A stretch of 49,294 nt of DNA from the NCBI GenBank assembly GCA_014730235.1, contig WJIO01000369.1:1-49294 (forward strand), written 5' to 3'. Below, one piece after another: positions 29,251-33,369 of this stretch (its first letter is position 1; each line of letters begins with the position of its first letter). The notes under the pieces are model-generated. The model saw only the letters and a program-made list of their open reading frames with translations. It was not told where the DNA came from and made no database searches. This DNA comes from Candidatus Poribacteria bacterium (GTDB lineage Bacteria > Poribacteria > DTPJ01 > WJIO01). The position numbers were made by a program, and so were the translations under genes.

Positions 29251-29290
29251 CTCGATTGTTATATAATTCAGATTTAATAAATCCTTGAAC

Positions 29291-29389
29291 GGGCACGCTG
29301 ATGAAGCTTTAAAATTTAATTGGATAATTTCCTGAATTCATATTTGCCATTCTGAGACGATTTATTAACCAACCTTCATCAGCGTGCTC
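29291..29389. terminator. Long-range inverted repeat between convergent genes
   Basis: GGGCACGCTGATGAAG (29291-29306) and CTTCATCAGCGTGCTC (29374-29389) pair over 16 bp with one mismatch, separated by 67 nt, and ATTTTTTATAA follows on the plus strand. It lies between the convergent CBM9-like and methyltransferase genes. It could work as a terminator for the plus strand or be another small palindromic element. Confidence 0.5.
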
Positions 29390-29402
29390 ATTTTTTATAA
29401 AT

Positions 29403-30149
29403 TTATTTCTTGTGAAATTCCAGCCATATACCGTAATTCACACCATCAGAATCCGGAGGTGTGGGTGTATGTATCCTGTAATCCTCGATATTCAGGGATT
29501 CCATTATACCTTTGAGTTCATCAGCCGTATCAGAAACACTGTATTTAGGCATCCCGCCTTTACCTTTTCCCTGTCTTGAGCGAACAGCTTTAGCTATTTC
29601 TACAGGCATATTTCGGGAAAAACCTCTACCTATAAAGGCTGTACCCTCGGGTTTCAATACTCGATATATCTCACCAAAGGCCTTTTCTTCATCATCCCAG
29701 AAATGGAATGAACCCCTTGAAACTACAATATCTGCGTAATTATCCCTGAATGGCAAAGCCTGGGAATCGGCAAATATCGCGCTGACCCGATGGCCAAACT
29801 CCGCTTCTTCTGCGGCTTTGTAAAATATAGGGAAGAAGAAAGGATTTATATCCGCGTTGACCCAGTGCATGTTTTGGGTGACTTTACATAACTCAACAAT
29901 CAAATTACCCGGCCCGCTTCCAAGATCAACACCGATGCCCCTTTTATCATGCAATTTAAAATCCTCTGTTATTTGTTGGGCCAAAGGAGCGTAAACTGGT
30001 GCCAGGGTGGTATTGGCCGTTTTTTGAAAATTAACAGCATATTCCAGGGTATATTCCTCGGGTGAAGGCACAAGCAGCGGCTCTGCAAGGCATAAACTGC
30101 CGATTATAAGTAAACCGCCGACTAATGCTAATAATCCTTTGTATTTCAT
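29403..30149 (-). CDS. SAM-dependent methyltransferase with N-terminal export signal
   Basis: A 248-residue class I methyltransferase. Motif I is GIGVDLGSGPGNLIVEL; NADINPFF, AIFADSQALPFRDNYADIVVSRGSFHFWDD and IYRVLKPEGTAFIGRG follow the Ubie/Methyltransf_11 pattern. Unusually it begins with a signal peptide or anchor: MKYKGLLALVGGLLIIGSLC, then LAEPLL. SAM enzymes are normally cytoplasmic, so the protein may be anchored with its domain inside or exported. Start at 30149 has GGAGG upstream and overlaps the stop of the ABC ATPase (ATGA). It is the last gene of the four-gene operon. The substrate is unknown. Confidence 0.87.
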   Translation of the reverse strand: MKYKGLLALVGGLLIIGSLCLAEPLLVPSPEEYTLEYAVNFQKTANTTLAPVYAPLAQQITEDFKLHDKRGIGVDLGSGPGNLIVELCKVTQNMHWVNADINPFFFPIFYKAAEEAEFGHRVSAIFADSQALPFRDNYADIVVSRGSFHFWDDEEKAFGEIYRVLKPEGTAFIGRGFSRNMPVEIAKAVRSRQGKGKGGMPKYSVSDTADELKGIMESLNIEDYRIHTPTPPDSDGVNYGIWLEFHKK

Positions 30150-30811
30150 CCGTTATCCTCCATCTGCTGGATTTTACCTTCTTTTAAATGAACTATGCGG
30201 TCGGCAAACTGGTCAACCGCTTCTCCATGAGTAACAACAACCACTGTTCCGCCGTTGCGATGATATTCTGAAAGGTATCCCACAGCTTCTGCAGCGTTTT
30301 CCGGATCCAGGTTTCCCGTCGGCTCATCAGCCAGCACAAGCTTGGGTTGATTCAATAAAGCCCGAGCAATGGCTGTTCTTTGCCTTTCTCCTGCGCTTAA
30401 TTCTGAGGGTTTATGTGTTTCTCTTCCTGAAATATTTAGGCGTTCCAAAAGCTTTTTAGCTTCCGGGGTTTTCTTTTTGCCCGAGTGGGAAGAAAGTATA
30501 ACGTTTTCAACTACATTCAGATAAGGAATAAGATGGAACATCTGAAAGACAAAGCCTATATTCTCAGCCCTAAAGTTTGCCCTCCGACGGTCTCCCATGG
30601 AATAAATATCTTTTCCATCCACCACTATATTACCCATACTGGGTCTTAACATACCACCAATAGTCAGCAAGAGGGTTGTTTTACCACTTCCACTGTGACC
30701 CCGAACTACAACAAATTCCCCCTGTTCTATATGTAAGCTAACATCATCTAATGCTTTGATTTCTCCCCGTTTGGTTCTGTATATTTTACTTAAATTTTCA
30801 AGATGCACCAT
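30146..30811 (-). CDS. ABC transporter ATPase, LolD/MacB type
   Basis: A 221-residue ATPase of the class serving FtsX-like permeases. Walker A GHSGSGKTTLL, Q-loop region FRAENIGFVFQMFHLIPYLNVVENV, signature LSAGERQRTAIARALL, Walker B LVLADEPTGNLDPENA, and the switch His in VVVVTHGE. The size fits LolD/FtsE/MacB-type ATPases. It lies 5 bp after the permease gene and overlaps the methyltransferase gene by 4 bp. It should power conformational change across the inner membrane rather than transport through the permease channel. Confidence 0.95.
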   Translation of the reverse strand: MVHLENLSKIYRTKRGEIKALDDVSLHIEQGEFVVVRGHSGSGKTTLLLTIGGMLRPSMGNIVVDGKDIYSMGDRRRANFRAENIGFVFQMFHLIPYLNVVENVILSSHSGKKKTPEAKKLLERLNISGRETHKPSELSAGERQRTAIARALLNQPKLVLADEPTGNLDPENAAEAVGYLSEYHRNGGTVVVVTHGEAVDQFADRIVHLKEGKIQQMEDNG

Positions 30812-30816
30812 TTTTA

Positions 30817-31980
30817 TTAATCCCTCAATGTATTAGCTGGATCCTGAGTTACAGCTACCATAGCAGGTATAAAGCTGGAAACAGCGGCAAAAACCGGAGC
30901 AGCGATCAATGACCATCCCAGGATATTGTAAAGGGGTTTTATGGATTTTGCCGTAATCTCGAATATATCCGGACCGTATTGCAGCGCAAACCATGTTCCA
31001 ACAGCAAAACCAATTCCAGCACCCAAAAAACCGATGATAAGGGCTTTCCCCAGAAACAATATAGATATTTTTCCTGAACCATATCCCAGAGCCCGCATAA
31101 CGCCGATCTCGTTTTGCCTTTCCCTGACGTTCATCATCGCCAGAACACCTATCCATGCGGCACATACAATAAGCATTATAGGCATGATCAGGGAAAAATG
31201 ACTTGAGATCATCAGCCGCTGTTTTTCCCTGGCTTTGGCTATGGAGCGTATTTGAATAACCTTTGCCTCCGGAAGAAGTTGTTCCAGTTCTTCCCGGAGT
31301 ATATCCAGCGAGTCTTTGTTTTCATCCAGACATAGACATTCCAGGGCTTTTATTTCATTTACCCGCTTCTCTTTATTCAAAAGCTCCTGCACGTCCTTAA
31401 GATGTGCGTATATGCGTATATCTTCATCGCTTCCTGTTTCTGGTCTGCGTCGTGCAATTCTGAAACTCTTACCCATTATTTGTATCTGATCCTGTGGCCC
31501 AAGTATATTAGCCAGTTCATATCCCACGTATACAGTTCCCCGGTCTATAGTATACGCGTTTTTAGGCTCCATGGTAAAAGTCATAGGTCGTTGTGCCTTG
31601 CCCGGTGGGGTTATTTCCTCAGGAGCGATTCCCGTCAGTATCACCTGCATACCACGCCATGTAATTCTCTCTTGAAGCGTAGCGATCAGATGATTGTAGG
31701 ACATATCTCCACGATCGGCAAATCTGCTTACATAATCTTCAGGCATGGTGTGTTCCGAAAAACCCACGTTCCAGAACTTACTCATGTCTGTCTCTCTTGG
31801 TATAATCCGCAGGTTAAAACCTATATCCCGCATAAGCCTTGTTGTTTCCCGCTTGGACGCTTGTCCTGTGGTAAAAAATGATACAAACAGTGTTACAGCG
31901 GTAACAGTTGCCAGAATACTGAAGAAGAAATTTATCTTTCTGTGCAGTATTTCCTTAAATATCAGGTATAATGTATTCAT
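30817..31980 (-). CDS. ABC permease of the FtsX/MacB/LolC type
   Basis: A 387-residue permease with the type VII topology: one N-terminal membrane helix (INFFFSILATVTAVTLFVSFF), a large periplasmic domain (about 45-255), and three C-terminal helices starting at SLIMPIMLIVCAAWIGVLAMM. The cytoplasmic FtsX-family loop is visible as NVRERQNEIGVMRALGYGSGKI. Such permeases move lipoproteins or drive periplasmic partners by mechanotransmission. No HlyD-like adaptor or TolC gene accompanies it; instead it sits between an anchored periplasmic protein (4-bp overlap upstream) and its ATPase. The single permease probably forms a homodimer. Confidence 0.93.
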   Translation of the reverse strand: MNTLYLIFKEILHRKINFFFSILATVTAVTLFVSFFTTGQASKRETTRLMRDIGFNLRIIPRETDMSKFWNVGFSEHTMPEDYVSRFADRGDMSYNHLIATLQERITWRGMQVILTGIAPEEITPPGKAQRPMTFTMEPKNAYTIDRGTVYVGYELANILGPQDQIQIMGKSFRIARRRPETGSDEDIRIYAHLKDVQELLNKEKRVNEIKALECLCLDENKDSLDILREELEQLLPEAKVIQIRSIAKAREKQRLMISSHFSLIMPIMLIVCAAWIGVLAMMNVRERQNEIGVMRALGYGSGKISILFLGKALIIGFLGAGIGFAVGTWFALQYGPDIFEITAKSIKPLYNILGWSLIAAPVFAAVSSFIPAMVAVTQDPANTLRD

Positions 31981-33212
31981 CCAGTTGCCCTCCTGCGACC
32001 ATTTAACACTATAAATAAACCAATAAGAAGGATCAGCACCAGCATTATCCCACTTACAAGTATAACAATCCTGTAAATTCCCCTGTTTTCTTCAGATCCC
32101 GAATCTGAAGATGATGACACCATCTTCTGTAATTGAGCCGGCGAAACGGTTGCGGATACAGAAGGCTTTTCCAGTTCTACCACTTGTTCCCTGTAACCAC
32201 TCAAACCGGGGATTGAACCTTCACCCTGAGCAGCGGCTCCAGCAGCTAGAATCTGGCTGATCTCTGTTTTAACCATAGGGCTTTCCGGGTCAAATCCCAA
32301 TACCTTGAATGCATCTGTCTGAGTTTTCTTATCCCAGCGCAGGGGTATCATAGTTCCCATCATCCATTTTCTATCCAACCCACATTCGCAAGAAGCTCCG
32401 ATGAGGGAAAGAATTCTGTAGACATTTCCGTTGGTGATCTCATCATCGCTTAGTATAGGACCGATTCTACGCCCTCTGCCGTATATCAGGGCAGCCCAGG
32501 GGCCTGTTTCCTTTTTATTTATATGGTCTTCCACACCCAAACCCCAGAGCAAAACCAGTTCTTTATCAAATTCATCCGGAGATATCTGGATCAGGCGTGG
32601 AGGTTTTTCAATGACTTTGGGTAACTGGCGCATTATCTTTTCTATTTCGCTTATGGCGATATTTATTTCTTCCAGGGCTTTCTCATTCTTAGCCTTATCC
32701 TTTCCCTGTATAAATACCACCGCGCAGTATTTATTGACCACAGAATCCCGTATTTCACGACGCTTCGGTGAAATAACAATTTCCTCCAGGGATGACCACA
32801 AAGGCTCTTTACGCATATCACCGGATTCAGGAACAGGTATTTTCATGGAATGACCCGATGGTGAAACAAGAATAGCTCCGGGAAATGAATCCAACTCCCA
32901 GAATTTAAGATATTTACCGGCTGTATCCCACGTCTCATCATCATAATCATCCTTGCTGTCCAGATTAATAATCTGAGACTCTACGTTACTATCCATAAGA
33001 GAAGCATAAGAAATTCGCCTGAAAGACGATACCATGCTTTCTGCTGTGCTGTTATTTACATAATAAAATAATTTGTAATGAGCAGGATCAATATCAACAA
33101 AGCCCACATCCCGAACGTTATACATACAGCAATAAGCTTGGTTATATACAAGACACAGAAATAAAAGTGTTAGCGTCAAAACAACATAATTAGCTTTCAT
33201 TGTTTTTATCAT
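31977..33212 (-). CDS. Membrane-anchored periplasmic protein, two thioredoxin-like halves (unknown)
   Basis: A 411-residue protein of no family I can name. It has an N-terminal signal (YVVLTLTLLFLCLVYNQAYC), followed by CMYNVRDVGFVDI. Region about 45-155 has strand-helix order and an FPGAILVSPSG block that suggest a thioredoxin-like fold; region about 165-300 may be a second one (YCAVVFIQGKDKAKNEKAL, GPWAALIYGRGRRIGP). Then comes a CECGLDRKWMMGTMIPLRW block with a Cys pair, an Ala/Gly/Ser-rich linker, and one C-terminal membrane helix (IYRIVILVSGIMLVLILLIG) with a basic tail. TTG at 33221 is also in frame; the ATG at 33212 has GGAG just upstream. First gene of the ABC operon. The fold is inference. 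Confidence 0.7.
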   Translation of the reverse strand: MIKTMKANYVVLTLTLLFLCLVYNQAYCCMYNVRDVGFVDIDPAHYKLFYYVNNSTAESMVSSFRRISYASLMDSNVESQIINLDSKDDYDDETWDTAGKYLKFWELDSFPGAILVSPSGHSMKIPVPESGDMRKEPLWSSLEEIVISPKRREIRDSVVNKYCAVVFIQGKDKAKNEKALEEINIAISEIEKIMRQLPKVIEKPPRLIQISPDEFDKELVLLWGLGVEDHINKKETGPWAALIYGRGRRIGPILSDDEITNGNVYRILSLIGASCECGLDRKWMMGTMIPLRWDKKTQTDAFKVLGFDPESPMVKTEISQILAAGAAAQGEGSIPGLSGYREQVVELEKPSVSATVSPAQLQKMVSSSSDSGSEENRGIYRIVILVSGIMLVLILLIGLFIVLNGRRRATG

Positions 33213-33241
33213 TATCTCCAAATCATTTGTTAAAAAGGTTC

Positions 33242-33369
33242 GGCTTTTCCGGCTTGAGTGTGGTGATAATTTGAAAATTTTCTCAGACTGTCATTCCTGC
33301 GAAAGCAGGAATCCAGTAGATCCGCATAAAGAAGTCTCTTATCTTTACCACACTAAATCCGGAAGAACC
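33242..33369 (-). repeat. PR1 MITE, short-core copy
   Basis: 128 bp, GGCTTTTCCGGCTTGAGTGT to CACTAAATCCGGAAGAACC. Core GTCATTCCTGCGAAAGCAGGAATCC is followed by an extra AGTAGATCC. Flanks AAAGGTTC (33234-33241) and AAAGGTCT (33370-33377) agree at six of eight positions. It lies about 30 bp above the start of the ABC operon and is co-directional with it. Confidence 0.82.

Follow-up and report, generated by a model that had tools for sequence, protein, structure and literature searches.

A conserved bacterial gene set combining a predicted type VII ABC machine with an anchored protein of predicted tandem thioredoxin fold and a probable exported methyltransferase-fold client

A 49,294-nucleotide contig of a Candidatus Poribacteria bacterium (WJIO01000369.1, positions 1 to 49,294, hereafter the window; assembly GCA_014730235.1, a 5.5-Mb draft genome) carries on its minus strand, between positions 29403 and 33212, four genes which encode in this order an exported, C-terminally anchored protein (here ANCH), a permease (PERM), its ATPase and a class I methyltransferase with an N-terminal export signal (here MT). 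PERM and the ATPase very probably constitute a type VII ATP-binding cassette (ABC) system that has ANCH and an exported client as partners, and the set was encountered in at least eight phyla, where the most frequent fourth partner is a large exported protein in which a methyltransferase domain is flanked by two propellers (here the propeller protein) and not the small MT. The reading we favour overall, namely that this ABC system drives work on exported, thiol-bearing partners, is given slightly less than an even chance. An initial annotation, made from the sequence alone, had presented the four genes as an undescribed envelope system, and indeed no description of a set comprising a tandem thioredoxin-fold adaptor and an exported propeller/methyltransferase protein was found in the literature searched.

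The gene order and the junctions given by that annotation were confirmed, ANCH/PERM and ATPase/MT being joined by 4-bp overlaps (ATGA) and PERM and the ATPase being separated by a 5-bp gap, with a good Shine-Dalgarno sequence (AGGAGG) preceding the PERM start. The ATPase scored 119.8 bits against the Pfam model ABC_tran, and its Walker A (GHSGSGKT), signature (LSAGE) and Walker B (VLADEP) motifs are readable. PERM scored 54.1 bits against FtsX (PF02687; cut-off 25.5) and its hydropathy profile displays four transmembrane (TM) segments, with a large domain placed between TM1 and TM2. An AlphaFold2 model of PERM (41 sequences; predicted local distance difference test score, pLDDT, 87.7) contains long stalk helices at residues 15-53 and 245-297 and aligned with LolE along its entire length (Z 20.9, root-mean-square deviation 5.2, 349 aligned), further structural matches being MacB, HrtB, YbbP and FtsX. 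With its FtsX domain, four TM segments and stalk, PERM is a member of the type VII ABC (MacB/LolCDE/FtsEX) superfamily, which upholds the earlier assignment of permease and ATPase to the mechanotransmission class, whose activity the pair would be expected to share. Cysteine makes up 1.1% of PERM residues, and the two cysteines of a C-L-C motif in its extracytoplasmic domain, C215 and C217, are kept in 68 of 68 relatives, even where identity has fallen to 26 to 34%. In the model the motif stands after a strand (209-214) and before a helix (224-235), a further strand (239-243) and the stalk helix from 245, an order which would place it at the membrane-proximal end of the domain, probably near the cavity used for ligands by related transporters; alignments of PERM to solved relatives covered mainly the C-terminal half. 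For HrtB, heme-related tyrosines at the top of the stalk have been described (PMC5985334).

ANCH belongs to no family in Pfam or NCBIfam, 40 of its relatives gave no credible Pfam match, and solved structures searched with its sequence and its profile yielded no credible match either. Its hydropathy profile consists of one N-terminal segment plus a C-terminal anchor, and an AlphaFold2 model (40 sequences, pLDDT 86.3) shows a pair of thioredoxin folds followed by a C-terminal helix. The top Foldseek match of this model was the b-b′ pair of ERp57 (2.2e-06), and a fold search with each half of the predicted model retrieved thioredoxins at Z 8 to 9; these values are modest, the stronger argument being that the entire match list is of thioredoxin fold. 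ANCH as modelled has the thioredoxin fold but lacks the CxxC of thioredoxin-fold oxidoreductases. The novel partner proposed for the transporter, with two possible thioredoxin-like halves, a CEC motif and a C-terminal anchor, is supported by the sequence and the predicted structure. Six cysteines are present (positions 20, 28, 29, 163, 275 and 277), of which C29, C275 and C277 are invariant across 40 aligned relatives, and the C-x-C pair occurs in 52 of 57 members, the remaining five being short fragments. An alternative TTG start at 33221 would lengthen the protein by 3 residues.

When named genomes were scanned with a PERM profile, 68 loci were returned, 62 of which were counted after six Pirellulales loci had been set aside, and the loci span Poribacteria, Aminicenantes, Omnitrophota, Planctomycetota, Verrucomicrobia, Bacteroidota, Armatimonadota, Hydrogenedentota and others. 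Where sufficient sequence was available, ANCH stood beside PERM at 45 of 53 loci (upstream), the ATPase at 52 of 57 testable loci and the propeller protein at 30 of 39 (downstream); chance is excluded as an explanation because the set is conserved across phyla. The expectation that the genes would be found together elsewhere was thus borne out for ANCH-PERM-ATPase in many phyla and for all four genes at two loci (L018 and L033), where ANCH, PERM, ATPase, propeller protein and MT form a single run on one strand, while the exact four-gene order of the window, in which no propeller gene intervenes between ATPase and MT, recurred at none of the loci examined. Two further loci preserve parts of the arrangement, L110 with ANCH, propeller protein and MT and L112, where MT comes after the end of a propeller protein. 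Within the phylum of the window's genome, ANCH relatives occur in 8 of 84 genomes, that genome included. The cultured isolate Puteibacter caeruleilacunae JC036 (L122, L123) possesses three ANCH paralogs: a divergent operon encodes ANCH (of the CSTPVFRYALERW type), PERM, ATPase and propeller protein with all three C-x-C motifs kept, and another set consists of ANCH and propeller protein only. Puteibacter itself was the only one of 198 sampled genomes of its phylum with an ANCH match at E 1e-10, which indicates that the set is scattered rather than universal. The six Pirellulales loci (L073-L078) hold a divergent permease, 32-37% identical and with its C-x-C kept, with no ANCH or ATPase detected within reach; four of them have an lpxB-like gene, as judged by eye, close to the permease. 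A plasmid search with PERM gave a single weak match (24%), and a role in anti-phage defence was rejected, as PADLOC returned only generic ABC and methyltransferase matches.

The genome of the window encodes on another contig (C141) a 1554-residue propeller protein which is 53% identical to that of L018, and several more proteins resembling it are present on contigs C327, C76, C271 and C242. The C-terminal propeller carries, close to its end, a C-x-C in almost all members that extend so far, and in most of them the context is PE[AS]SxGCxC (PEASSGCTC-like). In the methyltransferase domain, the propeller proteins of L110, L051 and the window's genome have a degraded motif I and that of L018 an intact one. 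It was considered that the small MT compensates for a degenerate domain in the propeller protein, but this is not a rule, because L018, which has both, keeps an intact motif I in the latter.

The small MT scored 61.8 bits against Methyltransf_11 (cut-off 21.2) and, to judge from its predicted Rossmann domain, canonical motif I and the acidic end of strand 2 (NADIN), it has the fold of class I S-adenosylmethionine (SAM) methyltransferases. It stays well below the curated cut-offs for UbiE/MenG (35.1 of 158.35 bits), ArsM (30.3 of 263) and BioC (40.4 of 184.95). Its hydropathy profile shows a single N-terminal segment, and its only cysteines are at positions 20 and 88, so that it has no C-x-C. 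The exported family comprises eight proteins among the genomes examined, that of the window and those of seven other genomes holding the system; a scan of the genome contigs with the window MT alone gave no match. All eight have a basic start and a leader ahead of a conserved PVYxPLA segment, the leader passes a simple hydropathy threshold in seven of them (not in L018), and an SRGS-x-x-x-W region is conserved in every exported relative. As the leader is basic before and acidic after its hydrophobic stretch, the positive-inside rule suggests that the catalytic domain lies outside the membrane. The export signal noted at the outset is thus likely to be genuine and a mis-called start improbable, since relatives have leaders as well, two distant cousins without a leader (L115 and L116) begin directly at the catalytic domain, and a strong ribosome-binding sequence, GGAGG, is found 7 nt upstream of the ATG. 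The genes of these leaderless cousins, which come from two genomes of the window's phylum, immediately precede genes for an ATPase and a permease of ABC-2 type (L115 5755-8037 and L116 438-2748), with an ArsR-like gene also present in L116.

Genes for molybdate or tungstate uptake recur near the set. ModA or MoeB was found near it at 23 of 62 loci, ModA being present at 11 of the 21 loci for which 7 kb of flanking sequence was available to either side, and the neighbours of many loci, in at least five phyla, include ModA-like double binding proteins, ModB, a ModC/WtpC-like ATPase, MoeB and MoaD. The ModA-like protein scores above the TIGR01256 modA cut-off and stands among ModB-, ModC/WtpC-, MoeB- and MoaD-like neighbours. 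If 1-2 molybdate operons per genome are assumed, chance would place one nearby at no more than a few per cent of loci. The window's genome also encodes AOR, a tungsten enzyme. Three loci of Bacteroidota have a TonB-type receptor gene near the set.

We propose that PERM and the ATPase, probably each as a homodimer, would use the binding and hydrolysis of ATP to move extracytoplasmic domains, and that the machine would act outside the membrane on dedicated partners, namely ANCH and the exported methyltransferase-fold client. YbbAP-TesA, in which a type VII ABC system is coupled to an enzyme of the periplasm (PMC12646458), is a precedent. ANCH would be a tethered adaptor made of two thioredoxin folds without a redox site, and the client would in most genomes be the propeller protein, the operon of the window having instead a small, intact, exported MT. 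A thiophilic ligand, be it a metal, a metal-sulfur or a thiol compound, could then travel from the permease cavity to ANCH and on to the propeller protein by way of the C-x-C pairs, a relay which we put forward tentatively and rate somewhat below even. Molybdenum (Mo) or tungsten (W) is the leading candidate because ModABC, MoaD and MoeB neighbours are frequent, even though it is doubtful that either is the ligand relayed. The conjunction of all these elements, in which a thiophilic metal or metal-sulfur ligand is passed along the C-x-C pairs, linked to Mo/W uptake and to SAM-type chemistry outside the cytoplasm, is improbable. Several points weigh against the favoured reading: the C-x-C pairs could be structural or form disulfides; 39 of 62 loci have neither ModA nor MoeB within reach; the linked ModA protein has no match in the window's genome, weak evidence given a 92%-complete draft; the small MT is without C-x-C; motif I is degenerate in the methyltransferase domain of many propeller proteins, such that methylation may not be the common function; and the physical complex, the relay, the ligand and any methyl transfer are all deduced from gene sets, predicted folds, motif conservation and neighbour counts.

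It may instead be that PERM, in the manner of LolCDE or YbbAP-TesA, lifts a lipid, quinone or lipopeptide out of the membrane, that ANCH receives it and that MT or the propeller protein modifies it, an explanation close to the one originally advanced, in which the methyltransferase would act on an envelope lipid, quinone or peptide handled by the transporter. LolE is the nearest fold to PERM, UbiE is among the Pfam matches of MT and YbbAP-TesA offers the precedent of a type VII ABC system joined to a periplasmic enzyme active on hydrophobic compounds; membrane extraction nevertheless leaves the C-x-C of three components and the Mo/W neighbours unexplained, MT falls far under the UbiE/MenG cut-off, and we consider it rather unlikely. 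A dedicated lipoprotein sorter was rejected, as some propeller proteins look lipoprotein-like by eye (for example L031, L041, L048) and many do not. The initial reading as a whole is upheld in part; the propeller protein, the shared C-x-C and the molybdate/tungstate link were absent from it. The predicted thioredoxin folds of ANCH and the conservation of C-x-C in three proteins could also suggest a thiol redox system, with electrons or disulfides exchanged among PERM, ANCH and the exported client and with the ABC system as regulator, but both folds lack CxxC and their closest solved counterparts are b-b′ domains of protein disulfide isomerase (PDI), which have no redox site, and this account appears improbable.

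A further question is whether MT acts at all where it is apparently placed, for this would demand that SAM or a substitute exists outside the cytoplasm, where no supply of SAM is known. Catalysis with SAM in the envelope is a possibility that we hold at a little under even. The protein could otherwise be a pseudo-enzyme or passenger, which serves as a binding module only or belongs to another pathway, a view compatible with the favoured reading. Loss of motif I from the methyltransferase module of many propeller proteins, the restriction of the small MT to 8 genomes among those examined and its location away from the cassette in three of these (L109, L111, L113) speak for such a passenger. Conversely, the window MT keeps a canonical motif I, the SRGS-x-x-x-W region is conserved in the exported relatives, and in five genomes the gene adjoins ANCH-PERM-ATPase (the window) or a propeller gene (L018, L033, L110, L112), so that the passenger view, while to be taken seriously, is the less probable side of the question. 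The positions of the features are collected in Table 1.

Table 1. Features of the four-gene cassette (coordinates of the window)
Feature	Position	Strand	Residues	Description
ANCH	31977..33212	minus	411 aa	exported, C-terminally anchored, two predicted thioredoxin folds; ATG 33212, stop 31977
ANCH signal peptide	33129..33212	minus		up to invariant Cys29 directly after; hydropathy, putative cleavage site
ANCH thioredoxin-like domain 1	32772..33083	minus	~44-147	predicted, without CxxC; Z about 8
ANCH thioredoxin-like domain 2	32394..32774	minus	~147-273	predicted, without CxxC; Z up to 9.1
ANCH C-E-C motif	32382..32390	minus	275-277	
ANCH C-terminal membrane anchor	32013..32069	minus	~382-400	hydropathy; AlphaFold2 helix 377-410
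PERM	30817..31980	minus	387 aa	4-TM type VII ABC permease; PF02687 and full-length LolE match
PERM C-L-C motif	31330..31338	minus	215-217	extracytoplasmic domain
ATPase of PERM	30146..30811	minus	221 aa	LolD/FtsE-like
MT	29403..30149	minus	248 aa	class I methyltransferase; export signal at the N-terminus
MT ribosome-binding site	30157..30161	minus		GGAGG, within the ATPase gene; 7-nt spacing to MT ATG
MT leader	30084..30149	minus	~1-22	basic start, hydrophobic core, then acidic residue
MT motif I	29904..29930	minus	74-82	VDLGSGPGN, canonical SAM-binding loop; from alignment

Upstream of ANCH and on the same strand, the window contains between 33624 and 45932 genes for polysaccharide export proteins (Wzz-like, SLBB), followed by sigma-70, DnaG and MutS2 genes, to which the cassette has no evident link. 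A palindrome, TGGATTCCTGCTTTCGCAGGAATGAC, occurs at 33290-33315 upstream of ANCH in a single copy in the window. At the other end, in the space that separates MT from the convergent CBM9 gene (29288-29392), lies a 22-nt inverted repeat, 86% complementary and 61 nt apart, of which no second copy was found in the genome when up to 3 mismatches were allowed.

Comparison with known systems sets the partners of this machine apart. LolCDE has in LolE the fold and 4-TM topology of PERM and in LolD the best-scoring model for the ATPase, but there is one permease gene here and the other partners differ, and the curated models were not reached (lolCE 45 of 362.45 bits; LolD 211.7 of 307.75). MacB does not describe the pair either, as ATPase and permease are separate genes scoring 173 and 23 of 966 bits. 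NosDFY, which serves the maturation of nitrous oxide reductase, is an ABC machine that supplies metal to a periplasmic propeller enzyme; its ABC type and partner fold differ from those of the PERM set, and the likeness is one of analogy, without a claim of homology. The b-b′ domains of PDI proteins (ERp57, 2h8l) are, like ANCH as predicted, tandem thioredoxin folds without CxxC, but no sequence relation is detectable, and ANCH is bacterial, membrane-anchored and has a C-x-C after domain 2. FtsEX-EnvC is likewise a type VII ABC system working via a periplasmic adaptor, the putative adaptor in the present case being itself anchored in the membrane and of predicted thioredoxin fold, and the scores for FtsE (194.6 of 264.85 bits) and FtsX (19.8 of 255) remain below the curated thresholds. 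YbbAP-TesA of E. coli couples a type VII ABC system to a periplasmic hydrolase acting on hydrophobic compounds (PMC12646458) and so shares the pairing of a type VII permease and separate ATPase with a periplasmic enzyme; YbbP, however, has 10 TM helices against the 4 of PERM (12.6 of 999 bits), no thioredoxin-fold tethered adaptor is described for it, and its enzyme is an esterase where the clients here are a methyltransferase-fold or propeller protein. Type VII ABC systems are grouped according to their partners (PMC12646458), and the partner set proposed here, a tandem thioredoxin-fold adaptor and an exported propeller/methyltransferase protein, was met in none of the literature searched; spread over at least eight phyla and with ANCH encoded three times in one cultured isolate, it is amenable to testing.

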